Below, one piece after another: positions 1-17,575 of a stretch of 40,564 nucleotides of DNA. Position numbers and translations under genes: made by a program. Position 1 is the first letter of the stretch. Each line of letters begins with the position of its first letter. The stretch is from a virus: the IMG/VR virus record IMGVR_UViG_3300025151_008304, positions 1 through 40,564 of that record; one strand, given 5' to 3'. The notes beneath the pieces were generated by a model. That model did no database searches, had not been told where the DNA came from, and saw only the letters and a list, made by a program, of their open reading frames with translations.

Positions 1-2009
1 TCATTAACAACGTAAAAGTTTCCACTCTTACATTCGTATACAAACATTACCGAGAAGTTCGGTTCGATGCTCTGCTCCACGCCGTTAATATAGCCAATAG
101 TGGCAGTAGGAGCAATTGCCATAGTGTTACTATTTCTGATTCCATATTTTAAAATGTGTTCTCTTACTTTTTTCCAATCGAGTTTTCCCCGCACGGGAGT
201 CTTTGGAGACTTTTTTCTAAAATCTAGTAAGTTGTTGTAAGTGTCGATGGGTAGTTGACCCTTTTCCCACAGTGAGCCAGAATAAGTCTTGTAGCTTCCT
301 CTTTCTTTAGCTAATTCGCTAGAAGAAAGAATCGCGTTGTAAGAAAAGAACTCTGTCAATTCGTCTATGAATTTTACAGCTTCGTCTGAATCGTATTGGA
401 CATTAAGAATCTGTAAAACGTCATGGGTAGCCATCATACCTAATCCAATTGGTCGATGTTGCATATTAGCATTTTCAGCCTCTTTAGTGGGATAAAAGTT
501 TAAGTCAATTACGTTGTCTAAAAGACGAATAGCAGTCTTAATTGTAGACGCTAATAAATCTTTATTTAGCTTCTTTCCTTCAAGATGGTTTTTTAAATTA
601 ACGCTACCAAGGTTGCATACTGCTGTTTCCCCTACTTCTATTTTTTCTCCATCTTTATATTTTGATGGTTTTGTATGCAGAAGAATTTCAGTACATAAAT
701 TACTTGAATGAACAGTGCCTTGATGTTGGTTGCTGTACCGAATATTTGATGGGTCTTTAAAAGTTACCCAAGGATGGGATGTCTCAAATAAAACTTTCAG
801 CATTTTCTTCCAAAGCTCTTTAGCTTTTACCTTGCGAAAATTTTTCAACTCTCCTTCCTCTGCTTTTTGGCAGTAGTAATCATAAGACTCTTCAAAGTCT
901 TCCCCATAAGCTTCATGCAATTCTCTGCAATCAGAAGGGCAGAACATGTACCAATCTCCATCTTCTTGAACCTTCTTCATAAAAAGGTCAGGAATCCAAG
1001 AGGCAGTATTCATATCGTGACATCGAAGTCTTTCATCGCCGGTGTTTCGGCGAAGATTTAAAAAGTCTTCAAAATCAAGATGCCAAGGCTCAAGGTAAGC
1101 GCATCCAGCACCGGGCCTTTTGCCGCCTTGGTTTACCGCGACAAGTGTGTCGTTGAGGATTTTGAGCCATGGCACAAGACCTCCAGAAATCCCGTTTGTG
1201 CCTTTGATATAAGCCCCAGAAGCACGAAAATTAGTAACGTCAAAGCCAAGACCTCCGGCGTACTTACTTTTTCTGGCTTCTTGCCAGACTCCTTCGAATA
1301 TTCCGTCGATGCTGTCATCAAATGTATTTAGGTAACACGAGCTTAATTGAGAGTGAGTAGTTCCGCTATTAAATAATGTAGGAGTGGATGGAGTGTAAAG
1401 CAGATTGCTAAACAGGTTGTAAAACTCAATTGCTCGTTCTTCTTTATTTTCTTCATTTAAAGCTAGCCCCATTGCGATCCTCATCCAGAACGCTTGGGGC
1501 GATTCGATTATCTTATTATTAATACGAATAAAATATCTATCAATTAAAATTTGTAGCCCAAGATATTTAAACTTTCTGTCACGATCAGGTATTAAAGCTT
1601 CCGAAAGTTTTTTTAAGTCATAGTCAAGTAGTCTTTCGTTGAGAATATCATTTTTGACCAGCTTCTTTACGCCATGTACGAAAGATTTTTTATACTGTAA
1701 ATCAAAAGTATCTGAATCCACACTTTCCCTAAAAACTTCTTTGTAAAGTGCATTAACCGCTAACGCCGCCGCTACATTACTATAATTAGGTTCTTTTTCT
1801 ATTTTGGCGCGAGCCGATAAAATTAAGGCCTCATCTATTTCTTTTGTTGTTATTTTATCGTAAAGCTGTAATTGCGCGTCGAGAATAACTTCACTAGCAG
1901 AGACGTTGTTGCCGTCAATACCAACACAAGCTCGATAAACGCATTTGTTTATCTTCTCTACGTCAAATTCCTCTAGTTTTCCGTTTCTCTTTTTTACTTT
2001 TATTTCCAT
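1..2009 (-). CDS. nrdA: Ribonucleoside-diphosphate reductase large subunit (class I), 3' end outside window
   Basis: This is the alpha subunit that reduces ribonucleotides to deoxyribonucleotides for phage DNA synthesis. About 669 residues are visible, read from ATG at 2009 leftwards, and the frame is open to the window edge, so roughly the last 100 residues (including the C-terminal redox cysteine pair) are missing. An ATP-cone-like domain fills about residues 1-95 (KRNGKLEEFDVEKI). Active-site elements are in place: the SSCYL cysteine near 225, the SSNLCTEI radical-site motif with Asn, Cys and Glu at about 437-441, VCNLGSVNL with the partner cysteine near 465, and PTATIGYINGVEQSIEPN near 644. 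It has its own promoter and a leader hairpin just upstream. The small subunit is not in the window. Identity is secure from motif order and length. Confidence 0.96.
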   Translation of the reverse strand, partial: MEIKVKKRNGKLEEFDVEKINKCVYRACVGIDGNNVSASEVILDAQLQLYDKITTKEIDEALILSARAKIEKEPNYSNVAAALAVNALYKEVFRESVDSDTFDLQYKKSFVHGVKKLVKNDILNERLLDYDLKKLSEALIPDRDRKFKYLGLQILIDRYFIRINNKIIESPQAFWMRIAMGLALNEENKEERAIEFYNLFSNLLYTPSTPTLFNSGTTHSQLSSCYLNTFDDSIDGIFEGVWQEARKSKYAGGLGFDVTNFRASGAYIKGTNGISGGLVPWLKILNDTLVAVNQGGKRPGAGCAYLEPWHLDFEDFLNLRRNTGDERLRCHDMNTASWIPDLFMKKVQEDGDWYMFCPSDCRELHEAYGEDFEESYDYYCQKAEEGELKNFRKVKAKELWKKMLKVLFETSHPWVTFKDPSNIRYSNQHQGTVHSSNLCTEILLHTKPSKYKDGEKIEVGETAVCNLGSVNLKNHLEGKKLNKDLLASTIKTAIRLLDNVIDLNFYPTKEAENANMQHRPIGLGMMATHDVLQILNVQYDSDEAVKFIDELTEFFSYNAILSSSELAKERGSYKTYSGSLWEKGQLPIDTYNNLLDFRKKSPKTPVRGKLDWKKVREHILKYGIRNSNTMAIAPTATIGYINGVEQSIEPNFSVMFVYECKSGNFYVVN

Positions 2010-4136: not shown

Positions 4137-4536
4137 ATTGAACGCACTCTATGTTATAAAAGTTAAAAATCTCTATAGCGCTTTTATCTCTTTTGTAGAC
4201 TTCATTGTAGACTACTTTCTTTATCCCGTAAGCGGCTATCATTGTGGCGCAATAAGAACACGGTAAAAGCGTAACGGCAAGCATTTTAGCCTCATCTCTT
4301 TTTATTAAGCTTAAACAATTTGCTTCAGCATGAACCATAAAAGGTCTCCTATGGTTTCGGTTTCTCAAAAAAGCATGAGAGACATCTTTCCCCGGGGCTA
4401 AACCGTTATACCCCACCGCAATAACCATATTTTTTTCGTTTAAAGCGCATGCTCCAACTTTTTGGTAAATATCTTCGCTTCTTTCCGCCACAGAAGAAGC
4501 GATTTTTAAAGCATATTCTTCCCAGCTCAACCTCAT
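4126..4536 (-). CDS. Deoxycytidylate (dCMP) deaminase
   Basis: It converts dCMP to dUMP. The zinc site is intact: VHAEAN (His69, catalytic Glu71) and LPCSYC (Cys93, Cys96), within 136 residues. I choose ATG 4536 (MRLSWEEYALKI) as the start. An earlier in-frame TTG at 4572 is the first codon of the -35 element TTGACT, so translating from it would read through the promoter. The product feeds thymidylate synthesis together with the overlapping dUTPase gene. T4-type dCMP deaminases are longer and allosteric; this one is close to the compact core of the family. Confidence 0.94.
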   Translation of the reverse strand: MRLSWEEYALKIASSVAERSEDIYQKVGACALNEKNMVIAVGYNGLAPGKDVSHAFLRNRNHRRPFMVHAEANCLSLIKRDEAKMLAVTLLPCSYCATMIAAYGIKKVVYNEVYKRDKSAIEIFNFYNIECVQYEN

Positions 4537-4543
4537 CGGTTTA

Positions 4544-4572
4544 TTTTTATCGTGAACCACCTCAAAAGTCAA
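4544..4572 (-). promoter_or_regulatory. Predicted leaderless promoter of the dCMP deaminase operon
   Basis: On the minus strand TTGACT (4572-4567), a 17-nt spacer and TAAAAA (4549-4544). The -10 ends 8 nt before the ATG at 4536, placing the transcription start at the start codon. It drives dCMP deaminase, dUTPase and the 68-aa gene. Confidence 0.65.
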
Positions 4573-4596
4573 GAAAAATCAAATTTTCCCCGAAAA

Positions 4597-4630
4597 AGAG
4601 GCTTGAGAAACTTTTTTCAAAAATACCTCT
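4597..4630. promoter_or_regulatory. Inverted repeat between divergent promoters (possible operator)
   Basis: AGAGG (4597-4601) pairs with CCTCT (4626-4630), and inside it TTGAGAAA and TTTTTCAA form a nested AT-rich palindrome (4603-4620). It lies midway between the minus-strand promoter at 4544-4572 and the plus-strand promoter at 4640-4668. This position would suit a shared operator, but short AT-rich palindromes are common by chance. Confidence 0.25.
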
Positions 4631-4639
4631 AAAGAAGGG

Positions 4640-4668
4640 TTGACATTCATGGTTTAAAGTTTTATAAA
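4640..4668 (+). promoter_or_regulatory. Strong sigma70 promoter driving the structured RNA region
   Basis: A consensus TTGACA (4640-4645), a spacer of exactly 17 nt, and TATAAA (4663-4668). It is one of the two best promoters in the window. No gene begins for more than 300 nt downstream, so the transcript starting near 4675 would be a long leader or a separate non-coding RNA. Confidence 0.8.
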
Positions 4669-4674
4669 GGGCTT

Positions 4675-4940
4675 TTGCAGCATTGTCATCCTGCTGTTAA
4701 AAGGTGGATGGCCCCGTAATCTAGCGTCCGGCTCTGCTTCTCGGAGACTTTGCACCCGGAGATAACTTGAAAGTGAAAATTTTCAAGGAGTGTAGTTAAG
4801 GTGATGTCATATGGGTGGAAACTACCGCACACCCAAAAAAGGCTAACCGGGGAGTATTCTCAGGGAAAAGAAAGATTGCCGGTGTTTTAGTTAAGTCTTT
4901 TTTTAAAAGATACCGCTAAAACGGGGAAAGTCTCCGTTTC
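4675..4940 (+). ncRNA. Candidate structured non-coding RNA (about 230-265 nt), unknown family
   Basis: This stretch has no convincing gene, is visibly richer in G and C than its surroundings, and follows a near-consensus promoter. It contains a chain of stems: CAGCA/TGCTG (4678-4682 with 4692-4696); TCCGG/CCGGA (4727-4731 with 4756-4760) enclosing CTCTG/CGGAG (4732-4736 with 4742-4746); a perfect 7-bp CTTGAAA/TTTCAAG (4766-4772 with 4781-4787); GGGTG/CACCC (4813-4817 with 4830-4834); ACCGG/CCGGT (4846-4850 with 4879-4883) enclosing GAG/CTC; and AAACGGGGA/TCTCCGTTT (4919-4927 with 4931-4939). A seven-T run occurs at 4898-4904. I found no tmRNA, RNase P, SRP, 6S or group I intron signatures. 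It could instead be a long regulatory leader of the dNMP kinase operon. The 3' end is not certain. Confidence 0.55.
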
Positions 4941-4943
4941 ACT

Positions 4944-4972
4944 TCGACTTTCTAGGGAAAAGTTTATATATT
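4944..4972 (+). promoter_or_regulatory. Possible promoter of the dNMP kinase operon
   Basis: TCGACT (4944-4949), 17 nt, TATATT (4967-4972). A second -10 choice, TATACT at 4974-4979, would give a leaderless mRNA at ATG 4987 but has no good -35. The region is very AT-rich, so chance matches are likely. Transcription could also come from the 4640 promoter. Confidence 0.35.
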
Positions 4973-4986
4973 ATATACTATATTTA

Positions 4987-5580
4987 ATGAGTTCTACATT
5001 TAAGAATATTGGTATCTCTGGAGTAGCTGGTTCAGGGAAGAATACTTTATCTGAGATAATAATTAAATTCTTGGAGAGAATGGATATCCCATGCCAAGAA
5101 CTTTCCATTGCAAATAATCTTAAGAAAGAGTTGTCTCCAATTTCACAGAAACTTTATGGAATAGATCCTTGCTCATGTAGTAGAGAAGAAAAAGATATCA
5201 TAAGACCTCTTTTAGTAGCCCACGGTGAGATAAAAAGGAAACTTTCTAAAGGAAAGCACTGGACTAATATTTTGCACAAGGATTTAGATGAAGAAAAAGT
5301 AAATATAATAACTGATGTTAGGTATTCTGAATACAAAGATGATGAAATAGATTGGTTAAAGAATGATGCTAATGGAGTTTTAATTCATTTATCTAGATAT
5401 ATTGAGAAGAATAATGATAGGGTTTATATTAAAGCAATGAATCAATCAGAAAAGAGAAATGACCCAATCATGAAAGATAAAGCTGATTTTGTGTTAAACT
5501 GGAATACTTATGAAGACAGTTCTCAGAGAATAGCTTCTACAGAAAAATTGTTAAAGTGGATAAAACGGTTGTATGTTTGA
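4987..5580 (+). CDS. Deoxynucleoside monophosphate kinase (T4 gp1-like)
   Basis: A P-loop kinase of 197 residues. The Walker A segment is GVAGSGKNT (12-20), the form typical of phage dNMP kinases, where a residue other than Ser/Thr follows the Lys and Thr comes next. The rest has the expected mixed alpha/beta pattern, with a substrate-domain-like region around residues 85-140 and an ITDVRYSEY strand. The enzyme phosphorylates dNMPs to dNDPs, complementing the divergently transcribed dCMP deaminase, dUTPase and ribonucleotide reductase. It is the first gene of the plus-strand block and overlaps the next gene by 8 nt. T4 gp1 is somewhat longer; the assignment rests on the P-loop form and context. 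Confidence 0.8.
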   Translation: MSSTFKNIGISGVAGSGKNTLSEIIIKFLERMDIPCQELSIANNLKKELSPISQKLYGIDPCSCSREEKDIIRPLLVAHGEIKRKLSKGKHWTNILHKDLDEEKVNIITDVRYSEYKDDEIDWLKNDANGVLIHLSRYIEKNNDRVYIKAMNQSEKRNDPIMKDKADFVLNWNTYEDSSQRIASTEKLLKWIKRLYV

Positions 5581-6022
5581 AGGGCACAAATTAGAAGAGT
5601 ATTTTTGCGAGCCAGTTTTAGCTTTTTGTGGGACTGGGGCCAAATTAAATCTAACTTCTGAAACTATGAAAGCTTTTCATAAATTTAATTTTAATAGTTA
5701 TGAAGCCACTTTTAATTATGAAGTTAAGATAGTTACTTTTCCTAATTTTCTGTTTACAAATAATGATGAAAGTTTTGATGAACCTGCTTTTTTAGTAGAG
5801 TTATCCATAAACTCTGATTTGTTTGATCAAGATAATTTTTTGGACGCTAACGTTTTTTTTCAAAATAATTTAGACGATTTAATAGAATATTGTATAATGT
5901 TACCACGTATGTTTAAAGAGCATCACCGTTATTTACTGAATATGGAAGGATTCAAATCATGTAAATACGGGGACTTTAACAAAAAAGTCACATTATGGAA
6001 AAGGGAAGCTGGGATTCATTAA
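5573..6022 (+). CDS. Hypothetical protein (149 aa)
   Basis: An acidic, Phe- and Asn-rich protein of 149 residues. No motif, signal peptide or membrane segment is recognised. Predicted strands in the first half (EATFNYEVKIVTFPNFLF) and a helical second half suggest a small alpha/beta domain. It is squeezed between dNMP kinase (8-nt overlap) and the sigma factor (28-nt overlap) in one transcription unit, so it is probably expressed early with them. Its function is unknown. Confidence 0.75.
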   Translation: MFEGHKLEEYFCEPVLAFCGTGAKLNLTSETMKAFHKFNFNSYEATFNYEVKIVTFPNFLFTNNDESFDEPAFLVELSINSDLFDQDNFLDANVFFQNNLDDLIEYCIMLPRMFKEHHRYLLNMEGFKSCKYGDFNKKVTLWKREAGIH

Positions 6023-6615
6023 CAGATATTTGTCTAGTAAATAATGTAAAAAGCGTTAATTGCGAGAAAAGTCTTAAAGAACTAATCAAACGCCACTCGG
6101 GCTTGTGTTTTAAAATAATGTCAAGGTTCTCTAAAAGCTTTTATGCAAATAATCTAGACATTAACGAGCTTTATAATGATAAAAATTTGATTATATGGAA
6201 TTCAGCAAACAGTTTTGATGAAGACAGAAAAGTAAAGTTTTCAACATGGTTAGCTAATCAGATAAAATACAGCTGCCTGAATTGCCTAAACAAAAAATCT
6301 AAGGACCGACTTGTAGTAACCGAAGACGAATCCCTAGATGCACTTAAAGAGAAAAATCCTTTTTATAACCGTGTTGAAACACATTCAAGTAATAATTTAT
6401 TTGAGTTTACTGAGAATATTCTATCACAACTCAAAGACCCTAGAATAAAAAAGATATTTTCATTAAGGTATTCTAACGAAGAAAAAAAACCATCATGGTG
6501 TGTTATAGCTGATAAAATTAGCGTTAGCACTCAAACTGCGATAAATCTTCATAATAGAGGTATCGAAATACTAAGAAAAAAAATAAAAAGCGAAAAAATG
6601 TTGGATAACGTATAA
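5995..6615 (+). CDS. Phage RNA polymerase sigma factor, sigma70 family
   Basis: A compact 206-residue sigma factor with regions 2 and 4 only. Region 2 spans about residues 27-100: LKELIKRHSGLCFKIMSRF, then the core-binding and promoter-melting segment ANSFDEDRKVKFSTWLANQI. A linker of about 40 residues follows. Region 4 is at about 141-198, with a helix-turn-helix at WCVIADKISVSTQTAI (168-183) and NRGIEILRKKI. It would redirect host RNA polymerase to phage promoters at a particular stage. The start at 5995 lies within the previous gene; no closer Met exists before the conserved domain. A consensus-like promoter begins 8 nt after its stop, so downstream genes are separately controlled. Confidence 0.82.
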   Translation: MEKGSWDSLTDICLVNNVKSVNCEKSLKELIKRHSGLCFKIMSRFSKSFYANNLDINELYNDKNLIIWNSANSFDEDRKVKFSTWLANQIKYSCLNCLNKKSKDRLVVTEDESLDALKEKNPFYNRVETHSSNNLFEFTENILSQLKDPRIKKIFSLRYSNEEKKPSWCVIADKISVSTQTAINLHNRGIEILRKKIKSEKMLDNV

Positions 6616-6661: not shown

Positions 6662-6988
6662 ATGTCGAACGAACAAAAGACAAACGACTGGAAAGAGCGC
6701 GAATTAGGCGCTCTATGGGTAAAGAAGAGCGATAAAGGCTCTCAGTACATGACTGGACACATTGAACTCAAAGGTGCTAGCGGCAAAGTGCAGCTAGTAG
6801 TGTTCAAGAATCAGGGCAAAAGAAACGAGGATGGAACTTACACTAAAAGTGAGAAGGCTCCAGCTTTTCGTATCTTTCTGAGTGAATCTCGGGAAGAGCG
6901 CGAAGCAAAGGCTACCCAGCCTACCTCTACTGCTCCTGCTCAAGAAGCAGCAGCTACTAATTCGTCAGATGACGAAATTATGTTCTAA
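6662..6988 (+). CDS. Small OB-like protein with SSB-type acidic tail (108 aa)
   Basis: I start it at ATG 6662 (MSNEQKTNDWKERELGALWV), because the longer frame from 6620 runs through the promoter. Residues 14-75 (ELGALWVKKSDKGSQYMTG, GKVQLVVFKN, KAPAFRIFLSE) match the pattern of small all-beta phage proteins distantly like DUF736 or OB folds. A flexible Thr/Ala/Gln linker (85-100) leads to the end SDDEIMF, which mimics the acidic, Phe-terminated tip of single-stranded DNA-binding proteins (DDDIPF). That tip normally recruits replication and repair enzymes. So an SSB-like role is plausible, though a true SSB fold is not shown. Its stop shares one base with the next start. Confidence 0.7.
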   Translation: MSNEQKTNDWKERELGALWVKKSDKGSQYMTGHIELKGASGKVQLVVFKNQGKRNEDGTYTKSEKAPAFRIFLSESREEREAKATQPTSTAPAQEAAATNSSDDEIMF

Positions 6989-8079
6989 TGTCCGATTTCG
7001 CCTTACATCTACCAATTAACGGTGTAAGCTTCGGTCAGGTTAGCACCGCCCTTCTGCGTGAATTTCACCAGAAGGGGGTGCAGCCTTCTATTTTTACAAT
7101 AGGGCAACCAGACTTAAGTAGCCAAGATTTACCTCAAGATTTCAGCTCATGGCTACAGTCTTGTATAAATAAATCATTTGAGTCCTACAATCGGAATACT
7201 CCTGTATTTAAGTTGTGGCATCTTAATCATGATAGTTTGACGTCCTACGCTAAAGATCAAACCTTGTTGACTTTTTACGAGCTTGATCATCCTACTTCAA
7301 TTGAAATAAACATAGCGAACAACCAGAAACGTCTTCTGGTGACATCTAAGTATACCCAAGATATTCTTTCGTCTTATGGAGTTGAAAATTGTGGCGTTGT
7401 TCCGCTTGGTTTTGATAAATATAATTTTACAAAAAAAGACACTTCATACCTAGAAGGAAAAATAGTTTTTAATCTAACTGGAAAATTTGAAAAAAGAAAA
7501 CATCATCAAAGGTTAATTAAAGCTTGGTTGAAAAAGTATGGAGATAATCCTAAATATGTACTTCAGTGTGCGATAGCTAATCCTTTTATTAAAGAAAATG
7601 ACTTTAAGTCGTTGATAGCTCAGACTTTAGAGGGTCGAAGTTATTTCAACATCAACTTTTTGGGTATGATGCAGAAGAATAGCTTGTATAATGATTTTCT
7701 TAACTCTGGTAATATAATAATTGGCATGTCTGGCGCAGAAGGTTGGGGTCTACCCGAGTTTCAATCTGTAGCATTAGGCAAGCATTCAGTTATACTTAAC
7801 GCTACTGCGTATAAAGAATGGGCTAATGAAGAAAATTCAGTTTTGATTGAACCTAGTGGAAAAATTGACTCTGAAGACGGAATGTTCTTTAAAAAGGGTA
7901 GCCACTTTAACCAAGGTAAAATATTTGATTTTAATGAAGATGACTTTATAGAAGGTTGTGAAAAAGCAATCAAACGATATGAAGAGTCTCCGATGAATGA
8001 ACAAGGGTTAAAACTTCAAGACGAATTTAGTTATTCTAAAACTGTAGATTCAATTATCAACATAATGCAAGATGCCTGA
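6988..8079 (+). CDS. Glycosyltransferase, GT-B fold (GT4-like)
   Basis: A 363-residue glycosyltransferase. The C-terminal Rossmann domain shows IVFNLTGKFEKRKHHQRLIK (about 153-172), the usual start of the donor-binding half in family 4, and GAEGWGLPEFQSVALGKHSV (about 248-267), the nucleotide-sugar-binding E-x7-E-like segment. The N-terminal acceptor half begins LHLPINGVSFGQVSTALLREF with a typical Gly-rich loop. No signal peptide. It opens the sugar operon and overlaps the SSB-tailed gene by one base and the next gene by 8 nt. Donor and acceptor cannot be read from sequence. Confidence 0.85.
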   Translation: MSDFALHLPINGVSFGQVSTALLREFHQKGVQPSIFTIGQPDLSSQDLPQDFSSWLQSCINKSFESYNRNTPVFKLWHLNHDSLTSYAKDQTLLTFYELDHPTSIEINIANNQKRLLVTSKYTQDILSSYGVENCGVVPLGFDKYNFTKKDTSYLEGKIVFNLTGKFEKRKHHQRLIKAWLKKYGDNPKYVLQCAIANPFIKENDFKSLIAQTLEGRSYFNINFLGMMQKNSLYNDFLNSGNIIIGMSGAEGWGLPEFQSVALGKHSVILNATAYKEWANEENSVLIEPSGKIDSEDGMFFKKGSHFNQGKIFDFNEDDFIEGCEKAIKRYEESPMNEQGLKLQDEFSYSKTVDSIINIMQDA

Positions 8080-8437
8080 ATATATTTACGAAAACCCTGA
8101 AACTGGTGAGCAAGTTACAGTTCTTCAAAGTATACATGAAGAACATGTTTATATTATTGATGGTGTAGAGTATAACAGGGTTTATACTATACCTAATGCC
8201 TCTATAGACACTAAAATAAATCCTCACTCAGCCAAGGATTTTCGTGAAAAAGCGAAAGGCTCCATCGGTGATTTATGGGATCAATCTGCCGAAGCCTCAG
8301 CTAAAAGAGAAGAACGCCATGGTCACGACCCAGTAAAGAAAAAGTTCTTTGAAGATTACTCTAAAAGCCGAAAAGGTGCAAAGCACCCCAAAGACCCCAG
8401 TAGGAACGTAGGTTCCAAAAATTTTACAATTGAATGA
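8072..8437 (+). CDS. FmdB-like small phage protein without zinc cysteines (121 aa)
   Basis: The N-terminal 45 residues, MPEYIYENPETGEQVTVLQS then a strand and VEYNRVYTIPNA, follow the FmdB regulatory-protein pattern, but the zinc-binding CxxC pairs of that family are absent. The C-terminal half is highly charged (DPVKKKFFEDYSKSRKGAKH). Similar proteins are common in T4-like phages of aquatic bacteria, with no established function. It is embedded between two glycosyltransferase genes with 8-nt overlaps on both sides, but nothing ties it to sugar metabolism. Confidence 0.8.
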   Translation: MPEYIYENPETGEQVTVLQSIHEEHVYIIDGVEYNRVYTIPNASIDTKINPHSAKDFREKAKGSIGDLWDQSAEASAKREERHGHDPVKKKFFEDYSKSRKGAKHPKDPSRNVGSKNFTIE

Positions 8438-9278
8438 TAAAATCATATTAATTAGTGACTTTTTTATTGATGATTTTGTAGGTGGAGCAGCTTTAAATGA
8501 TGAAGAGGTTTTTGTTACCTTAAATAGGCACTACGACGTACAAAAAATCAAAAGTCGCTATTTGTATCCGGGGTTCATCCAAGAGAACCTCGATTCTTTT
8601 TTTATAATATCTAATTTTTTTGGTATTGAACCTTCTATACGTCAAACTATAGAGGATAATTGTAAGTACATTCTTTATTGTCACGATTACAAGTTTGTTC
8701 ATCATACAAACCCTGCACTGTACCCTAATTTTATTGTCCCTCCCAACCAGCTAATAAATATTTCATTTCATAAAAAAGCTGAAGCTATAATTTGTCAAAC
8801 AGCTTTTCAAAAAAATATTTACGACAAAAATTTAAACCTCCCCGAAAAAACAATCAATTTTTCTGGAAATTTATGGTCAGAGCAACACCTAAATTTATTA
8901 GAGAAGTTGGGGAATAACCCAAGAACTCTGAATAAGTGTGCAGTAATCGACTCTCCATATCCACAAAAAGGGACTAAAGAATCTCAAGAATACTGTAAGC
9001 GAAACAATATACCCTTTGATACTATAAAAGATCCAGATTATGAATCTTTTCTAAAGTTTTTATCCATGTATTCTTCTTTAGCTTTTCATCCATCTACTCC
9101 AGAAACATGTTGTAGGTTGGTTTTAGAAGCTAAGATGTTAGGGATTGAAGTTCACACTAATGAGTTAATTGGTGCTTCTTATGAACCTTGGTATGATAGA
9201 AATGGCTTAAGCTTGATAAACACTATGAGAAGTAAAAAAGAAGACCTACTAGAATTAATAAGAGATGTCAGACGGTAA
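8430..9278 (+). CDS. Glycosyltransferase, GT-B-like
   Basis: A 282-residue protein with the layout of a short GT-B glycosyltransferase. An N-terminal Rossmann-like half (IILISDFFIDDFVGGAALND) carries a Gly-rich loop, and a C-terminal half has a donor-site-like segment, HPSTPETCCRLVLEAKMLG, at about 220-238. The C-terminal half is shorter than in classical family 4 enzymes. A middle part, AEAIICQTAFQKNIY, resembles the strand-helix linking the two halves. It overlaps its neighbours by 8 and 14 nt. Donor and acceptor are unknown. Confidence 0.75.
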   Translation: MNDKIILISDFFIDDFVGGAALNDEEVFVTLNRHYDVQKIKSRYLYPGFIQENLDSFFIISNFFGIEPSIRQTIEDNCKYILYCHDYKFVHHTNPALYPNFIVPPNQLINISFHKKAEAIICQTAFQKNIYDKNLNLPEKTINFSGNLWSEQHLNLLEKLGNNPRTLNKCAVIDSPYPQKGTKESQEYCKRNNIPFDTIKDPDYESFLKFLSMYSSLAFHPSTPETCCRLVLEAKMLGIEVHTNELIGASYEPWYDRNGLSLINTMRSKKEDLLELIRDVRR

Positions 9279-9996
9279 AATAACAGTAATTTTAAACGGA
9301 TATAGACGCCCTCATACCTTAACGCCTCAGATGGAGGCTTTAAAACGGCAGACTATTAAGCCAGACATGGTTATGTTTTGGCAGAATAAAGATAGTGATG
9401 TGAGGTTTGATTATTCTACTTTATCTAATTGTGTAGTTACCACTAGTAATGCAAACTTTGGAGTTTGGGCTCGATTTGCGTATGCTTTAAACGCTACTAC
9501 TGAATATGTTTGCGTTTTTGATGATGATACAATTCCCGGGCCTAAGTGGTTAGAAAATTGCTTGGAGACTATTAAAACTAATGAAGGTTTGTTAGGTACT
9601 ATTGGAGTCATATTTAATGATGAAAATTATATTAGCTACGATAGATGGGGGTGGTCTAAACCTAACGAAGTCACAACTAGAGTAGATATAGTAGGTCATA
9701 GTTGGTTCTTTAAAAGGGAATGGCTTGGAGCTTTTTGGAGGGAAGCCCCAATACCCGAAAGTAGAATATGCGGCGAAGATATGCACTTCTCTTACGCTAT
9801 TCAAAAACATTTAGGGCTTAACACCTATGTACCACCTCATCCCGAAAAGGATAGAGATATGTGGGGGTCTAATCCTACTTTAGCTTACCAATACGGCGTA
9901 GATAAAAACGCGATATCTGTTAATTACCACGGGTCGCATTTTGGTGATGCCCTAAAATCAACTATTAAGAAAGGTTTCAAGTTAATAAAGTCGTGA
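9265..9996 (+). CDS. Glycosyltransferase family 2 (GT-A fold)
   Basis: A 243-residue GT-A enzyme. The N-terminal strand KITVILNGYRRPHTLTPQME is the usual family 2 opening. The metal-binding acidic motif is VFDDDTIPGPKWLE (Asp86-88), and a later GEDMHFSYAI (about 168) supplies the likely catalytic Glu-Asp. No membrane segment is evident, so it works in the cytoplasm or peripherally. It overlaps the previous gene by 14 nt and the epimerase gene by 4 nt (GTGA). The sugar it transfers is unknown; UDP-ManNAc made by the next enzyme is one option. Confidence 0.88.
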   Translation: MSDGKITVILNGYRRPHTLTPQMEALKRQTIKPDMVMFWQNKDSDVRFDYSTLSNCVVTTSNANFGVWARFAYALNATTEYVCVFDDDTIPGPKWLENCLETIKTNEGLLGTIGVIFNDENYISYDRWGWSKPNEVTTRVDIVGHSWFFKREWLGAFWREAPIPESRICGEDMHFSYAIQKHLGLNTYVPPHPEKDRDMWGSNPTLAYQYGVDKNAISVNYHGSHFGDALKSTIKKGFKLIKS

Positions 9997-10997
9997 AAAA
10001 AATATTAATATGTTATGGCACTAGGCCAGAGTATATTAAAATAGAACCTATAATTCTTCACGAGTTATCACAGTGGCTTAATATACGAACTCTATTTACT
10101 GGTCAGCATAAAGACATAGGAAAAGGTACTGTTAAACCGGACTACTCATTTGAGATGCACGATTGCGCCCCTAATCGTCTTAACTCTATTATTTCTAGCA
10201 TAACTGGGTCTTACTGTTTAGATCAAGTTTTAGAGGATGGATTTACCCATGTATTAGTCCAAGGCGATACAGCTTCAGCTTTTACTTGCGCTTTGGCTGC
10301 ATTTAATAAAGGGTTAAAGGTCATACATTTAGAGGCAGGTTTACGCACTTACGATAAGAGTCACCCTTACCCTGAAGAAGTTTATAGGCAATGTATATCA
10401 AGGATTGCAGATGTACATCTTTGTGCTACTAAATCAAATAAAACGAACTTACTAAGAGAAATGGCTCAAGGTGAAATACATATTGTAGGGAATACAGTAT
10501 TAGATCACCTTCAGGATATTCCTATAAGCTATAACAATGATGTCCTTGTCACTTTACATCGTAGAGAAAATCACAAGTCGATTCCATTTTGGTATTCTCA
10601 AATAGAGGATATTGCTCAAGATAATCCTGATTTAAATTTTGTTTTTGTATCTCACCCAAATCCAAACTCGAGATGCCCTCTTAAAAAAGGTTTAAGCAAT
10701 GCTTCAACGGTTGATGCTATGAGTCATTCATATTTTATAAAAAGAGTTTCTGCATGTAGGTTTTTAATTAGTGACAGCGGCGGAGTTCAAGAGGAAGCTT
10801 CCTTTCTTAAAAAGAGGGTTATTGTATGCAGGGAAACAACTGAAAGACCTGAAGCTCTGGAATCATTCAATTACCTTTGTAAAAAGATAGGGGATTTGCC
10901 TGAAATTTTTAATAAAGTGAAAGAAAACTATATTCCAAGCTCAGATTGTCCGTTTGGAGACGGTAAGTCTGCAGAAAAAATTCTACAGGTTATATGA
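9993..10997 (+). CDS. wecB: UDP-N-acetylglucosamine 2-epimerase (non-hydrolysing)
   Basis: It interconverts UDP-GlcNAc and UDP-ManNAc, a precursor of bacterial surface polysaccharides. Family signatures in order: GTRPEYIKIEPII (9-21), VQGDTASAF (89-97), HLEAGLRTYD (112-121), HRRENH (189-194), SHPNPN and ISDSGGVQEEASFLKKRVIV (259-278), then RETTERPEAL. At 334 residues it is slightly shorter than typical (about 370). GTG is the start, in a GTGA overlap with the upstream glycosyltransferase; it overlaps the next gene by 4 nt. A UDP-ManNAc dehydrogenase is not present in the window, so the product may be used directly. Confidence 0.93.
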   Translation: MKKILICYGTRPEYIKIEPIILHELSQWLNIRTLFTGQHKDIGKGTVKPDYSFEMHDCAPNRLNSIISSITGSYCLDQVLEDGFTHVLVQGDTASAFTCALAAFNKGLKVIHLEAGLRTYDKSHPYPEEVYRQCISRIADVHLCATKSNKTNLLREMAQGEIHIVGNTVLDHLQDIPISYNNDVLVTLHRRENHKSIPFWYSQIEDIAQDNPDLNFVFVSHPNPNSRCPLKKGLSNASTVDAMSHSYFIKRVSACRFLISDSGGVQEEASFLKKRVIVCRETTERPEALESFNYLCKKIGDLPEIFNKVKENYIPSSDCPFGDGKSAEKILQVI

Positions 10998-11902
10998 AGA
11001 TAACTGTCACAGGAGGAAGAGGTTTTATAGGGAGTCATTTTGTTGAATCTGCACTCGAACGAGGCTGGAAAGTGCATGATATAGACAAGATGGGTTACGC
11101 TTCTCATAGAGTGCTGCCTTGGGACAAGAATCCTAACTACTCATTAACACACGCTAATATAGCAAATGTTAGGCATATACCCACCTGTAATATATTGATA
11201 AATTTTGCCGCTGAAAGTCACGTAGATAATTCTATAACTAATTGCGCCCCTTTTATTGAGTCGAACGTTAACGGAGTCCACAATTTATTAGAACTAGTAA
11301 GAGTGACCCCTAAATACAAAAGGCCATTATTCTTTCATATTAGCACGGATGAAGTATATGGGGATATAGAAGAAGGTTCTTTTAAAGAAACAGATAAGCT
11401 TAACCCTAGCAACCCTTACTCTGCGACAAAAGCTTGTTCTGAGATGCTAATAAATTCTTATAATAGAACTTACGGCATTGACTACGTGATGACTAGAAGT
11501 GGTAATAATTATGGAGCCCGTCAATACGAGGAGAAGTTAATTGCTAAATGTATATCTTGTTTAAGGGATGGTGAAAAAATACCTGTTCACGGAGACGGTT
11601 CCTATGTAAGGGATTGGACATATGTTAAGGATAATGTGGACGGAATCATGAGCATCATCGACAAAAAGATAAAAAACCAATGCTTCAATATAGCCGCTAA
11701 TAATTACATACAAAATATAGATGTAGTTCGGGCTATTATAAAAACTTTTAATAAAACGGATGAAGAGATACAATTTGTTGAAGATAGATGGGGTCAAGAT
11801 ATTCGATACTCAGTAGATACATCAAAGATAACAAAAGCTACAGGATGGAAACCTAAATATTTTTACGGCCTAAATTTAGATTTTATAAATGAAAAGTTAT
11901 AA
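10994..11902 (+). CDS. NAD-dependent sugar epimerase/dehydratase, dTDP-glucose 4,6-dehydratase-like
   Basis: An extended short-chain dehydrogenase of 302 residues. It has the NAD-binding TGGRGFIGSHF (6-16), an acidic turn at the end of the second strand, HISTDEVYGD (115-124) with the Thr-Asp-Glu characteristic of RmlB-type 4,6-dehydratases, and the catalytic Tyr-x-x-x-Lys in YSATKA (142-147). It also has the substrate segment VHGDGSYVRDWTYVKDN. The enzyme would yield an NDP-4-keto-6-deoxyhexose. The nucleotide partner (dTDP, UDP or CDP) is not certain. It sits in a 4-nt/14-nt overlapping arrangement in the sugar operon, ahead of an acetyltransferase and an aminotransferase that could act on its product. 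Confidence 0.9.
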   Translation: MKITVTGGRGFIGSHFVESALERGWKVHDIDKMGYASHRVLPWDKNPNYSLTHANIANVRHIPTCNILINFAAESHVDNSITNCAPFIESNVNGVHNLLELVRVTPKYKRPLFFHISTDEVYGDIEEGSFKETDKLNPSNPYSATKACSEMLINSYNRTYGIDYVMTRSGNNYGARQYEEKLIAKCISCLRDGEKIPVHGDGSYVRDWTYVKDNVDGIMSIIDKKIKNQCFNIAANNYIQNIDVVRAIIKTFNKTDEEIQFVEDRWGQDIRYSVDTSKITKATGWKPKYFYGLNLDFINEKL

Positions 11903-12698
11903 AAAAGAATTCGATAAACTTTTAAATTTAGTAAAGAGTGAAACTCCTTTTGCTTTTTCTAGATTTTCGGATGGAGAAGTTACTGTACTTAGAAATAAAA
12001 CTGTAGTTTTAGCGGAAGATCATTTTATTCAAGGCGACATTCATGGGCCTAATAAGATTTATGCAAATAGCTACATGCCAGAAGAGCAAAAAAGTTTTAT
12101 ACCTGAGAAAAATAAAAAACAACACTGCAAATTGATAGACGCTTTTCTCTTCCAAAAAGAAAATTACATAAAAGGTATACCCGGTCAAAACAGTTTAGAT
12201 GGTGGAGAGTCGTGGAAATTTTGTACTGAATTATACGGCACAGAAGACTGGGAAAATTTATCTTTTTCTAATGTCATGATAAACGGTAATTACAGTAGAT
12301 TTATTAATGAAATGCTGCCCCTGTTTACTCAACGTGACATTGTTTTAGTAGCTAACGAGAACTCAAAGTTAGATAAATTACCATTTGAAGTTAAAAAGTT
12401 TTTTCCGATTGGCACCAATTGTATGGTTAATGATTTTGATCTGCCTGAAAAAATTAGCGAGTGGATAAAAGAAAATAATATATCCAATCATTTATTTCTT
12501 TTTTCTGCCGCTTCTCTTAGTAATTTTTTATGTTATGATCTTTTTAAGAATCATGATAATAATCAATACATGGATATAGGTTCTTCGCTTGGCCCGTTGC
12601 TTCAGCTCGAAGGTTGGAAGTCCAGTAGGACTTATTTATTAGCTTATTGGGGGAATGTTGATCACCCAGTACTTCATGAGGAGGATGTATGGAATTAG
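11889..12698 (+). CDS. Putative GT-D type glycosyltransferase (DUF1792-like)
   Basis: A 269-residue protein whose N terminus contains FAFSRFSDGE (21-30). This matches the R-x-x-D-G-E signature of the DUF1792/GT-D glycosyltransferase fold, where the Asp-x-Glu binds the metal and nucleotide sugar. Later segments, LFLFSAASLSNFLCYDLF and YMDIGSSLGPLL near residues 197-240, match the conserved second half of that family. No membrane segment. It overlaps the dehydratase gene by 14 nt and the acetyltransferase gene by 10 nt. The assignment is by pattern only; donor and acceptor are unknown. Confidence 0.62.
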   Translation: MKSYKKEFDKLLNLVKSETPFAFSRFSDGEVTVLRNKTVVLAEDHFIQGDIHGPNKIYANSYMPEEQKSFIPEKNKKQHCKLIDAFLFQKENYIKGIPGQNSLDGGESWKFCTELYGTEDWENLSFSNVMINGNYSRFINEMLPLFTQRDIVLVANENSKLDKLPFEVKKFFPIGTNCMVNDFDLPEKISEWIKENNISNHLFLFSAASLSNFLCYDLFKNHDNNQYMDIGSSLGPLLQLEGWKSSRTYLLAYWGNVDHPVLHEEDVWN

Positions 12699-13072
12699 TA
12701 GAATGTAGTAATTTACCCGGAGACCACTGGTACTCTATTCTTGATATTAGGAATGACAATAGAGAAGGTTTTGGAGACCCTAGTATAATACCAACAGCAG
12801 CTCATCACGCCTATATGTTTAAAAACTTTTCCAATTACTTGGTGTGCGTTGATAGCGGCGAAGTGATAGGTTTTATAGGTCATGTTGAAAATGATATAAG
12901 ACTAGCTACAAAGAAAACACATCAAAATAAAGGTGTCGGTAAGTTTATGGTAGAAGGTTTCATGAAAAAATTTCCAAATTCTTTCGCCAAGGTTAAAATT
13001 GATAACGAAGCAAGTAGGAGATTGTTTGAAAGTTGCGGGTTCCTTAAGAAATATTACATATTAGAGAAGTGA
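12689..13072 (+). CDS. GNAT-family N-acetyltransferase
   Basis: A 127-residue single-domain GNAT protein. The acetyl-CoA pyrophosphate-binding loop is NKGVGKFMVEGFM (about 81-93; Q/R-x-x-G-x-G/A type), followed by the conserved NEASRRLFESCGF near 106-118. It lies directly before a sugar aminotransferase, so it most likely acylates an amino sugar made by that enzyme. A GAGGAGG stretch ends 4 nt before the ATG, one of very few Shine-Dalgarno-like sequences in the window. It also encodes the end of the upstream protein, so it may be accidental. Confidence 0.85.
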   Translation: MELVECSNLPGDHWYSILDIRNDNREGFGDPSIIPTAAHHAYMFKNFSNYLVCVDSGEVIGFIGHVENDIRLATKKTHQNKGVGKFMVEGFMKKFPNSFAKVKIDNEASRRLFESCGFLKKYYILEK

Positions 13073-13674
13073 GAAATCCTTTTGAGATAGTTGAGTGGTT
13101 TGAAGAAGCTATAGCAGAATACACGGGAGCTCCGTACGCTATTGCTTGCGATAGCTGCACTGACGCTATTTTTCTTTGTTGCAAGTATTGCGAAGTTCAA
13201 GGCTCTACTGTAACAATACCTTCTCGTACATATGTATCACCGCCTCAATCTATATTACAGGCCGGTGCCAGAGTTGAATTCGAAGATATTGAATGGAGCG
13301 GTATTTACCAATTAAAACCACATCCAATTTACGATGCAGCAAAAAGGTTAACTTCAGGCATGTATATACCGGGTTCTTATATGTGTTTATCTTTTCACCA
13401 CAAGAAGCCACTTAAAATAGGCAAGGGCGGAATGATACTTACAGATGATGAAAAAGCTGTAGAAACTATAAAGAAGTTAAGGTATGAAGGAAGAACAATA
13501 GGCGTGCCTTTTCAAGATGACGATTTGGGAGATGGCGGGTGGAACATGTATATGACTCCTGAGCAAGCAGCCAGAGGGTTAACCTTATTAATGGCTTATC
13601 CCAAACATGCCGAAGATCAAATAGAAGATCCTCCTTACAGAGACTTAAGAACTTTTAATTTATTTAAACAATGA
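13069..13674 (+). CDS. DegT/DnrJ/EryC1-type sugar aminotransferase, short form
   Basis: A PLP-dependent aminotransferase related to enzymes that aminate 4-keto-6-deoxy sugars. The visible elements are YTGAPYAIACDSCTDAIFL (18-36), the family's cofactor-phosphate region, and SFHHKKPLKIGKGGMILTDD (about 104-123) with the PLP-binding Lys. The end of the large domain, NMYMTPEQAARGLTLL, is also present. At 201 residues it is about half the usual 360-400, and the C-terminal small domain is missing with no trace downstream. It may be a working short form or need a partner. It starts at GTG in a GTGA overlap. A product of the 4,6-dehydratase or the GDP-mannose dehydratase could be its substrate. Confidence 0.8.
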   Translation: MRNPFEIVEWFEEAIAEYTGAPYAIACDSCTDAIFLCCKYCEVQGSTVTIPSRTYVSPPQSILQAGARVEFEDIEWSGIYQLKPHPIYDAAKRLTSGMYIPGSYMCLSFHHKKPLKIGKGGMILTDDEKAVETIKKLRYEGRTIGVPFQDDDLGDGGWNMYMTPEQAARGLTLLMAYPKHAEDQIEDPPYRDLRTFNLFKQ

Positions 13675-14480
13675 AAATCGCTTTATGCTTACATGGATAT
13701 TTTGTTAACTCGGGAGGTACTCAAGCCTCTATTGACGGCGCTAACTACATTAAAAATAACATTATTAAAGATAATGAAGTTGATATTTTTGTTCATAGTT
13801 GGGAGCAAACACAAAGTATTCAAGATTTAATAACCTCTACCTATAATCCTACAGAATGCGTATTTGAGGAACAAAACGAATTTGATAAAGAGTTAAGTCA
13901 GATTAAATTCTCTGATTTTGATGATAGCTTTGATCGTGCTCAAACGATGTATAAAAGTAATTCCCCTTTTCAAACTTTAAGCTTCTTATACTCCCGTAAA
14001 CAAGTAATGAATCTTAAGAAAAATTATGAGGAGCAAGAGGGATTTAAGTACGACTGTGTGGTACTAGCTCGTTTTGATTTAGGGCAGCGGGGAAAAGAAT
14101 GCCCCCAACAATACTATGCTACGGATATAAGGTTCGACCCTAATTTAGATATGAGTTATCTATATTCATGTTTTTGGGACCAGTTAAATTGGGGCTATGC
14201 TGATCATTGGTTTTACTCTAACTCTAATAATATGGATATAGTGGGAAATGCTTTTGACAAAGTAATCCCTTACTATCAAATTGACTCTGATTATGCTCGC
14301 GCCATAACAGAAGGATGGCCAGACAGTAATGTATCTAGTGAGTTTAGTAATGAAATGCTTAAAGACACTCCGTCAAAAGATTTAGTTAAGTGGGAAAAAT
14401 GGCACTGCATTGATAACCACAAATACTACAAGTGGTATTTTATTGATACAGGGCTTTACAAAAAAAGTAAATTCGTATGA
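13671..14480 (+). CDS. Putative glycosyltransferase of the sugar operon (269 aa)
   Basis: A 269-residue protein beginning KIALCLHGYFVNSGG, with VDIFVHSWEQ near residue 44 and YDCVVLARFDLG near 125. This pattern occurs in poorly characterised GT-A-like proteins of capsule and phage sugar clusters. In them the ARFDL segment stands in the place of the DxD motif. The C-terminal part is aromatic-rich. There is no signal peptide or membrane segment. It overlaps both neighbours by 4 nt. I assign it as a transferase mainly from those segments and its position, so this is provisional. Confidence 0.55.
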   Translation: MKIALCLHGYFVNSGGTQASIDGANYIKNNIIKDNEVDIFVHSWEQTQSIQDLITSTYNPTECVFEEQNEFDKELSQIKFSDFDDSFDRAQTMYKSNSPFQTLSFLYSRKQVMNLKKNYEEQEGFKYDCVVLARFDLGQRGKECPQQYYATDIRFDPNLDMSYLYSCFWDQLNWGYADHWFYSNSNNMDIVGNAFDKVIPYYQIDSDYARAITEGWPDSNVSSEFSNEMLKDTPSKDLVKWEKWHCIDNHKYYKWYFIDTGLYKKSKFV

Positions 14481-15214
14481 TGACTTTAAAAGACGTTTCG
14501 GTTATTATGTATTCTCACCATGATTATGGTGATGTGTGGCCAATGTTTACAGGGCAAATAGATAAATATATTTCGCCCGAAATTAATAGGTTAATATTTT
14601 GCAACTCAACTACTAATACAATACCTGACAACTGGCAATTAATCGAGTATGAAGAAAACTTGTCTTATAATAAAAAAGTTTATGAATGTTTAGAGAAGGT
14701 AGAAACCGAATTTTGTTTGTATCATCAAGAAGATATGCCGCTTTATGATAGCCCTAATATAGAAGCTATAGAGTCGTTTCTTCCGGAAATTTCAAAAGGT
14801 GAAATAGATTTTGTTAAATTAATCAAAGGAGGAATAGACAATGATATCCCTTATAATTTCTTAAAAAGCCCCTATCTTTTTAAAATACCTCAAAACGCAC
14901 AATACCTTTACGCAAATCAGCCCAGCGTTTGGAAAACTTCACGATTAAAACAGGTTTTCGAGCATACATTTTCACCTACTATAAGAGAATTTGAAACAGG
15001 CGCTCAAGCTACATGCAGATCTTTAAATATTAAAGGTTGTTATACTTACAATAATGAAAGTAAAAGAGGCGAACTACATTGGGACTCTTCAATTTACCCT
15101 TATGTAGCGACTGCTATAGTTAAAGGTAAATGGAATACGAGTCAGTATCCAAGTGAGCTTGGCGTCTTGTTTAAAGAATATGAAATAAATCCATCTGTAC
15201 GTGGTGAAATATGA
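14477..15214 (+). CDS. Putative GT-A-like glycosyltransferase (245 aa)
   Basis: Opens DVSVIMYSHHDYGDVWPMF, a nucleotide-binding strand and loop, and carries EFCLYHQEDMPLYD near residue 74. There the QEDMPLYD segment probably takes the role of the metal-binding acidic motif. FSPTIREFETGAQATCR follows near 162. This arrangement is seen in GT-A-like enzymes with loose similarity to family 2. Two start codons (ATGATG) lie together in the overlap with the previous gene. The next gene begins in an ATGA overlap. Donor and acceptor are unknown. Confidence 0.55.
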   Translation: MMTLKDVSVIMYSHHDYGDVWPMFTGQIDKYISPEINRLIFCNSTTNTIPDNWQLIEYEENLSYNKKVYECLEKVETEFCLYHQEDMPLYDSPNIEAIESFLPEISKGEIDFVKLIKGGIDNDIPYNFLKSPYLFKIPQNAQYLYANQPSVWKTSRLKQVFEHTFSPTIREFETGAQATCRSLNIKGCYTYNNESKRGELHWDSSIYPYVATAIVKGKWNTSQYPSELGVLFKEYEINPSVRGEI

Positions 15215-15741
15215 TTAAACTTTTAATTTTAGATGTTGACGGCGTCTTAACTGACGGAAGAAAAACTTACGATGATAATGGTTTAGGATGCTACAAAGTT
15301 TTTTGTGATAAAGATTTTACTGCAATCAAACGTTTAAAATCTTCTGGTGTACGTGTGTGTTTTTTATCGGGAGATGAGAATGTTAATAGAGCAGTAGCTA
15401 ATAACAGAGACATAGATTTTTATTTTTCCCGAGGAAAATGCAAGACTGAATTTTTAAGTATTTTAAGTGAAAAGTATAGTTGCCCAACTTCTAAAATGGC
15501 ATTTGTAGGAGACGATCTTTTTGATTTACGTATTGCGCAAAGTGTTGGTTATTCTTTTTGTCCATCGGATTCGTGTTCCGAAATAAAGAAAGAGTGCACT
15601 CTAGTACTTAAAAGTAAAGGGGGAGATAACGTAGTAATGGAATTGGTAGATTATCTAATAGATTTTAATTTAATTCCAACAGTTGAACCAAAACAGGTAC
15701 TGGAATCCGTCTATAAATTAGATGAAAAAGAAAAATTTTAA
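15211..15741 (+). CDS. HAD-family sugar phosphatase, KdsC-like
   Basis: A 176-residue haloacid-dehalogenase phosphatase of the KdsC/NeuA-C-terminal type. Motif I is LDVDGVLTDG (7-16, nucleophile Asp8 and acid/base Asp10), motif II the Ser in FLSGD (about 51), motif III the Lys in KCKTEF, and motif IV VGDDLFDLRIA (about 105). It lacks a cap domain, as KdsC does. It would remove phosphate from a sugar or sugar acid. It immediately precedes a sugar kinase and an isomerase-nucleotidyltransferase fusion, suggesting one activation route (kinase, phosphatase, nucleotidyltransferase) such as that for heptoses or 3-deoxy sugars. Confidence 0.88.
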   Translation: MIKLLILDVDGVLTDGRKTYDDNGLGCYKVFCDKDFTAIKRLKSSGVRVCFLSGDENVNRAVANNRDIDFYFSRGKCKTEFLSILSEKYSCPTSKMAFVGDDLFDLRIAQSVGYSFCPSDSCSEIKKECTLVLKSKGGDNVVMELVDYLIDFNLIPTVEPKQVLESVYKLDEKEKF

Positions 15742-16432
15742 AATAGGCCTTTTCGGAAAATGTTATAAAGATAATATTTTTACAATCTCCAAATTCAAAA
15801 AAGGAGAAACTAATATTCCCGTATCCTCAGTCTCCCAACGAGGAGGTATCTATAATATAGACAGGTTAAAAATACCGGGAATTAAAACTAAAACTTTTGA
15901 TGAAGGAAAAGTTAACTCTATCATAATCAACGAACTTGATAGTTCTAAACGTAGTTCGATACTTCATAATTCTTCTACTTTTGAAAATAAAGACACTTCT
16001 TGGAAGTCAACTTATGACTGGATTCACATAGCTTATGTAGATGATATAGACCCAGTTTATTTAAATGATTTTTCCCATGAAAATGTTAGTGTTGATTTCT
16101 GCACCCTTAATCCTAGAAAAAAATACCGTTCAATTATCGATGAATGTTCTTTAGTTTTTGATTCTAGAGAAAGAAAACCGCTCTACAGTGACATAAAAAC
16201 CTCAACCCCACTTATTTTACATGATGAATATGGCTGTGAATGCATAGAAAACGGTAAAATTACCTATTTTTCCACTATAAAGCCTGTCAAAGGGCTAGAA
16301 GTTAATGGGGCAGGAGACATTTTTTGTGGAATATTTCTCTCTCAGCTTTATAATTTAAATTTAGAGGAGGCTGTAAAAACCTCGTGTCAGAAAACTACAG
16401 ATTACTTAAAAGTAAAATATGAAAAAATATAA
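15722..16432 (+). CDS. PfkB/ribokinase-family sugar kinase, short
   Basis: The C-terminal part holds the PfkB signature VNGAGDIFCGIFL (about 194-206), which contains the catalytic Asp and anion hole, preceded by strands with LILHDEYGCECIENGKITYF. At 236 residues it is shorter than typical ribokinases (about 300). The N-terminal sugar-binding half is reduced, yet GGIYNIDRLKIPG resembles the Gly-Gly substrate motif region. Within this operon it may act like the kinase half of HldE, phosphorylating a sugar phosphate before nucleotidyl transfer. Overlaps are 20 and 14 nt with its neighbours. Confidence 0.78.
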   Translation: MKKKNFKIGLFGKCYKDNIFTISKFKKGETNIPVSSVSQRGGIYNIDRLKIPGIKTKTFDEGKVNSIIINELDSSKRSSILHNSSTFENKDTSWKSTYDWIHIAYVDDIDPVYLNDFSHENVSVDFCTLNPRKKYRSIIDECSLVFDSRERKPLYSDIKTSTPLILHDEYGCECIENGKITYFSTIKPVKGLEVNGAGDIFCGIFLSQLYNLNLEEAVKTSCQKTTDYLKVKYEKI

Positions 16433-17573: not shown

Positions 17574-17575
17574 CA

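Follow-up and report, generated by a model that had tools for sequence, protein, structure and literature searches.

A structured noncoding RNA with a promoter of its own stands immediately before the dNMP-kinase/sigma-factor operon of an uncultured phage, and its fold is conserved among homologues. The stretch of DNA that was analyzed, referred to here as the window, is a virus record of 40,564 bases. The initial annotation had proposed a structured RNA of no assigned family, under a promoter of its own, at this position, a proposal borne out by the conservation of the fold and by the negative results of Rfam searches. We put at roughly even odds (probability of about 0.5) the reading that this is a discrete early phage RNA gene, representing a new large structured family, which works in trans through three co-evolving GGGAAAAG sites.

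Genomic setting, homologues, and family searches

The promoter was present exactly as first annotated, with TTGACA, a 17-nt spacer, and TATAAA, and the region described as GC-richer indeed has a GC content of 0.45, compared to about 0.36 in its surroundings. The features of the locus are as follows.

4640-4668, plus strand: sigma-70-type promoter TTGACA-17-TATAAA (TTGACA at 4640-4645, TATAAA at 4663-4668), identified by sequence
~4675-4967, plus strand: structured noncoding RNA of ~290 nt, identified by homology, covariation, and absence of an ORF
4944-4972, plus strand: possible second promoter TCGACT-17-TATATT, matching only 9/12 of the consensus, 14 nt before the kinase ATG
4987-5580, plus strand: dNMP kinase, first gene of the operon (PHROG 139, E = 4.5e-13)
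5995-6615, plus strand: phage sigma factor, third gene of the operon (Sigma70_r2, E = 1.6e-7; PHROG 351)

The 5' end of the RNA was placed about 7 to 8 nt past the −10 hexamer, as estimated from the promoter, and the 3' limit where conservation stops. A TTGAC(A/T)-17-TANNNN promoter lies 7 to 12 nt 5' of the first helix (P1) in 11/11 phage copies and in L098, a copy from a MAG contig whose start resembles that of the phage copies. Since the spacing is always 17 and P1 follows the −10 hexamer at this short distance, transcription should, by sigma-70 rules, begin at the base of P1 or close to it.

The operon gene after the kinase gene encodes a 149-amino-acid protein, and genes for dCMP deaminase and dUTPase lie 5' of the RNA on the opposite strand. 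A cluster of sugar genes is located inside the phage operon (window 6988-21065), encoding glycosyltransferases, UDP-GlcNAc 2-epimerase, GDP-mannose dehydratase, and an isomerase/nucleotidyltransferase fusion. Similar DNA (TTTTCCCCG...CTTTTTTC.AAAAT) is found at window positions 176-223 and 4579-4626, one upstream of the RNA promoter and the other, it seems, within the leftmost gene of the window. Promoters of the TTGACT/TTGATT type are located only about 10 to 15 nt before start codons (window 4536-4572; L029, L030, and L062), and Shine-Dalgarno motifs are not enriched in the genes of the phage of the window (8/53; background, 0.12); given these two observations, these phages may use leaderless mRNAs.

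Thirteen further distinct copies of the RNA were found. Seven are close phage copies (L015 = L002, L016 = L003, L017, L018, L019, L020, and L021 = L011), which together with the window form group A; three are distant phage copies (L023, L024, and L088 = L090; group B), and three are located on MAG contigs (L096, L097, and L098). The phage copies were collected by a kinase protein search and by DNA-pattern scans, and a single copy was detected in each group A or B record searched. With group A as its only input, a covariance model of the 3' half retrieved the three group B copies (E = 1.1e-8, 6e-6, and 1.6e-5), and a covariance-model scan of bacterial and archaeal genomes retrieved L096 (E = 1.6e-36), L097 (E = 6.9e-24), and L098 (E = 1.1e-36). 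These contigs were binned as Verrucomicrobia, Alphaproteobacteria, and Dehalococcoidia, respectively, a bin being no proof of host. No more copies were present among 388 genomes of the phylum of the Verrucomicrobia MAG and 58 relatives, and neither the RNA nor its kinase had a relative in the collection of named phages.

The three MAG copies may be artefacts of assembly, a possibility that counts against the trans reading. The other genes on the L096 and L097 contigs look chromosomal; from the translations, we take L105 to encode ThiC and 6-phosphogluconate dehydrogenase and L106 to encode a phosphate-transport operon. Directly 5' of the RNA, both contigs contain a reading frame of about 80 amino acids (L096:5526-5790 and L097:3079-3339), which is 94% identical between them amid unrelated flanks, and this region has the look of a small unit that is mobile or has been transferred horizontally; a likeness of the frame to phages proved spurious. 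The linkers between the RNA and the next gene carry repeated CGTA/ACGATACG-like words (L023:5908-5970, L024:5938-5980, L088, L097, and L098), resembling iterons or operator sites.

A conserved reading frame, the alternative that the initial annotation had set against a structured RNA, was looked for in the homologues, and no frame is kept, nor do the homologues have a long reading frame in common. The short ORF from 4804 (AUG UCA UAU...) was rejected, its frame being broken by length differences in L016 to L018 and L020 and not kept in group B. Searches of the window and 22 related loci against Rfam 15 at the gathering threshold returned only tRNAs, in L036 and L061, and at permissive E-values only sub-threshold matches far under the curated cut-offs, with no family among them; at both thresholds, the first description of the RNA as lacking a known family thus holds for the window and the related loci. 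The family models for GOLLD and ROOL, RNase P, 6S RNA, and group I and II introns gave no match, no known riboswitch family in Rfam matched the RNA, and ARAGORN identified no tmRNA or tRNA gene in the window.

Like GOLLD and ROOL (PMC7567579, on ICP1; PMC12286853, on structures), this RNA is large, ornate, noncoding, encoded in phage genomes, and of unknown function. GOLLD and ROOL differ in that they span several hundred nucleotides, frequently lie close to tRNA genes, and are represented in Rfam, whereas the RNA of the window measures ~290 nt, lies beside nucleotide-metabolism genes in a window without tRNA, and has no Rfam match. The abundant noncoding RNAs of ICP1 and PLE are likewise ORF-less and encoded by a phage or its satellite, and they are strongly transcribed (PMC7567579), the likeness being one of description only. 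In the literature on structured phage RNAs and on RNA adjacent to dNMP kinase genes, covered at the level of titles and the opening lines of abstracts and with little from subscription journals, no description of this RNA was found. The family and the fold appear to be new, and the general kind, large structured phage RNAs without known function, is already known.

Fold and covariation

The fold was modeled by hand segmentation of the group A sequences and by RNAalifold on a MAFFT alignment. At least six stems had been claimed at first, a number that is exceeded, since 12 helices are supported, among them two pseudoknots and two long-range helices. In overall order, a 5' H-type pseudoknot (P1/P2) is followed by a domain closed by P10 and containing P3, P4, and the pseudoknot P5/P6, then by P9, with P8 as a long-range contact. 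The helices, together with an alternative hairpin, are as follows.

4677-4682 with 4692-4697, plus strand: P1, first stem of the 5' pseudoknot; two-sided changes in 3/6 pairs, 100% paired
4685-4691 with 4706-4712, plus strand: P2, second stem of the 5' pseudoknot; two-sided changes in 6/7 pairs, 100% paired
4716-4722 with 4873-4879, plus strand: P10, long-range helix closing the central domain; found by RNAalifold
4727-4731 with 4756-4760 and 4735-4737 with 4752-4754, plus strand: hairpin P3; two-sided changes in both parts
4742-4750 (CGGAGACUU) with 4928-4936 (AAGUCUCCG), plus strand: P8, long-range helix of the P3 loop; covarying letters
4766-4772 with 4781-4787, plus strand: hairpin P4; two-sided changes in 4/5 pairs
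4792-4796 with 4821-4825, plus strand: P6, pseudoknot helix with the P5c loop; letter variants
4800-4802 with 4846-4848, 4806-4808 with 4841-4843, and 4813-4817 with 4830-4834, plus strand: P5a, P5b, and P5c; two-sided changes
4884-4890 with 4916-4922, plus strand: variable hairpin P9; two-sided changes in 3/7 pairs, 89% paired, fully paired in group B
4927-4932 with 4946-4951, plus strand: alternative hairpin P7; invariant AAAGUC/GACUUU

On the MAFFT alignment A6, made without structure from eight phages, 98.0% of 450 cells in 57 pairs were paired, and pairing fell to 28 to 46% when partners were slid by 1 to 3 columns as a control. Two-sided changes occurred in 22/57 pairs without P10 (null, 5.1 ± 1.8; maximum, 11 in 2,000 re-deals) and in 23/64 pairs with P10 (tree-aware null, 5.3 ± 1.9; maximum, 14 in 5,000 re-deals), the null being obtained by re-dealing substitutions along a FastTree tree with our own script rather than R-scape, and the structure having been derived in part from the same sequences that were later scored. 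The stems thus covary in homologues, which is the check that the initial annotation had proposed. Within group A by itself, each of the helices P3, P5a, P6, and P8 has only a few two-sided pairs, and none of the four is significant individually; group B and the MAG copies provide the support for them. Across 11 hand-aligned sequences, 489/494 cells were paired. Single-sequence folding energy was only mildly low (z = −1.9 for the plus strand and −1.75 for the minus strand) and by itself is not decisive; the significance comes from the homologues.

The exchanges can be followed in individual helices. P1 reads GCAGCA/UGCUGU in the window and GUCGUA/UACGAC in L016, and P2 reads GUCAUCC/GGAUGGC in the window and UCUGCCU/AGGCAGG in L015. 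P10 is GUAAUCU/AGAUUGC in the window and GUGUUCU/AGAACAC, GAUCUCU/AGAGAUC, or GCGAUCU/AGAUCGC in distant copies, and variants of P6 are GUAGU/ACUAC, GUAGG/UCUAC, and GGAG/CUCC. In P3, all of the cells (88/88 in 11 sequences) are paired. P8, which is weak inside group A alone, pairs with differing letters in the window (CGGAGACUU/AAGUCUCCG), L016 (GAAGACUU/AAGUCUUC), and L024 (AGAGAGACUU/AAGUCUCUCU), with 93/95 cells paired. Group B retains P1, P3, P5, P6, P8, P9, and P10, is without P2, and has a different P4. P5 is entirely exchanged yet still paired in group B and in L097 (AAGA/UCUU and UGCC/GGCA), which in the latter indicates that the fold is under structural selection.

P7 and P8 are mutually exclusive, as both need AAAGUC. 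Of the two, P8 alone showed covariation; because the strands of P7 (AAAGUC/GACUUU) never vary, covariation neither supports nor refutes this hairpin. A direct CCCG/CGGG long-range pairing fits every group A sequence but has zero two-sided changes and was omitted from the model. The MAG copies (L096:5870-6380, L097:2327-2994, and L098:918-1552) share a conserved 3' extension, which can form a further H-type pseudoknot (GCCCC/GGGGC with GGAG/CUCC); folding energy is low in two of them (z = −3.0 and −3.6).

Repeat sites and mode of action

Three GGGAAAAG sites are located in the 3' part of the RNA, outside helices or at their edges, at or between P10, P9, and P8.

4862-4870, plus strand: repeat site 1, AGGGAAAAG; concerted change in L021
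4923-4930, plus strand: repeat site 2, GGGGAAAG; concerted change in L021
4954-4962, plus strand: repeat site 3, AGGGAAAAG; concerted change in L021

The L021 copy has six unique changes at otherwise invariant columns. Three of these are the same G-to-A change, one in each GGGAAAAG site, and two form one compensatory pair in P3b. The chance of the triple change was roughly 7e-4 in a post hoc hand calculation (49 invariant G columns, four of them changed from G to A). The repeats keep GGA while varying in concert, and this joint variation at dispersed sites points to a single partner that would read all three. CsrB/RsmY-type sponges carry several GGA-containing sites. The likeness of the repeats to these sites is a lead only, as the RNA of the window has just three co-evolving sites in a pseudoknotted fold and not many hairpin loops.

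The action in trans is favored by this concerted change in L021 and by the L097 copy, in which the gene next downstream is convergent, not sense, so that the fold is upheld there without a leader role. On this reading, host RNA polymerase would make the RNA early in infection, and the RNA would probably be cotranscribed with the dNMP-kinase operon and processed from it. The fold would display the three sites to a single co-evolving partner, for which a protein is the likeliest candidate, and the RNA could thereby work in trans, either as a scaffold or as a sponge with multiple sites. An antisense role at the starts of phage genes was rejected: when duplex energies were computed for three conserved segments at 53 such starts, they did not surpass background.

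The trans reading is weakened by the position of the RNA, which lies immediately 5' of the kinase gene in 11/11 phage copies (gap, ~20 to 120 nt), with no terminator-like site between the two in the window, and by the RNA-less relatives L029, L030, and L062, which have the same promoter type directly before the kinase ATG, as though insertion had placed the RNA in the kinase leader. The same observations fit a cis-acting, riboswitch-like leader of the dNMP-kinase/sigma-factor operon, in which the choice between P8 and P7 over AAAGUC would set transcription or translation, possibly in answer to a nucleotide or a phage protein; the mutual exclusion of P7 and P8, with strands that are invariant or conserved, also fits. 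We regard such a leader as a serious rival, somewhat less probable than action in trans. L096 and L097 keep the structure without a kinase downstream, and the L097 copy, unlike the 11 phage copies, does not lie 5' of a sense gene. P7 itself does not covary, the RNA matches none of the known riboswitch families, and there is no Shine-Dalgarno sequence to sequester; a switch at a ribosome site is hard to picture when these motifs are not in excess in the phage genes. In cobalamin-type riboswitch platforms, the pairing partner of a hairpin loop is a 3' segment also able to fold into a local hairpin, as is the partner of the P3 loop here, a likeness that we treat as a lead only; the RNA differs from cobalamin riboswitches in having no family match, no Shine-Dalgarno sequence to control, and some copies without a sense gene. 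The initial guess of a dNMP kinase leader thus stands as possible on account of the constant position in phages, whereas a purely kinase-specific role is made less likely by the MAG copies that keep the fold without a kinase. The other initial guess, a regulatory RNA acting on host RNA polymerase or ribosomes, gained no specific support.

Processive antitermination, in which the nascent RNA would bind RNA polymerase for read-through of the ~35-kb plus-strand operon, is unlikely. The put RNA consists of two short stem-loops, and the RNA of the window is far larger. The plus-strand genes do run uninterrupted from 4987 to the end of the window with the RNA at their head, and HK022 put RNA provides a phage RNA precedent (PMC9378689). 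Both put and the EAR element are structured RNAs that open a phage or polysaccharide operon, but they differ from the RNA of the window in size and fold, it has no Rfam match, and no sense operon follows it in L097.

The GGGAAAAG sites may instead be read as DNA, so that they and TCGACT-17-TATATT would be binding sites and promoter of the kinase operon rather than features of an RNA. In line with this, the window shows a mild excess of GGGGAAAA (7 seen versus 2.1 expected), several phages have an inverted GGGGAAAA copy upstream of the promoter, and the 3' end contains the 9/12 promoter match. As conservation at the DNA level could account for the repeats and the 3' tail but for none of the compensatory changes over 12 helices, we consider it very improbable. 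Least probable of all is a replication-primer RNA or origin element, with the transcript priming in the AT-rich sequence located after the RNA in group A: the GC skew changes sign at the RNA, but in two related long records it tracks gene direction on both sides with no single flip there, and the flip was explained as a coding-strand effect.

Other RNAs at the same address

A different structured RNA, of about 300 to 390 nt, is located upstream of the dNMP kinase in L026:5545-5945 (grouped with L027), L028:965-1330, and L034:1000-1290. Two-sided changes were found in 16/75 of its predicted pairs in three sequences, and it had no Rfam match at the gathering threshold. More long GC-richer leaders, unlike the RNA of the window and nearly unlike each other, precede the same kinase in L025:5500-5990 and L061:5590-5960. 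None of the RNAs of L026/L027, L028, L034, L025, and L061 had detectable similarity to that of the window. The slot before the dNMP-kinase/sigma-factor operon may hold three or four sequence-unrelated kinds of RNA and may be of interest in itself.

Tentatively, and as a doubtful extension of the trans reading, the RNA could be a new phage RNA machine: a compact double-pseudoknot RNA that would form an RNP through its three co-evolving sites and act early in trans, as one instance of a broader pattern, with different large structured RNAs filling this slot and bacterial chromosomes capturing copies.

Large structured RNAs to which no function has been assigned are uncommon, and the phage examples, such as GOLLD and ROOL, have long gone unexplained. 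The RNA described here offers a predicted 5' end, a testable secondary structure, and a fixed address beside a phage sigma factor, and its size permits synthesis and structure determination. Homologues are available in phages and bacterial contigs, and the natural variants point to a probable binding site. Uncultured phages, then, harbor RNA families that are absent from Rfam.
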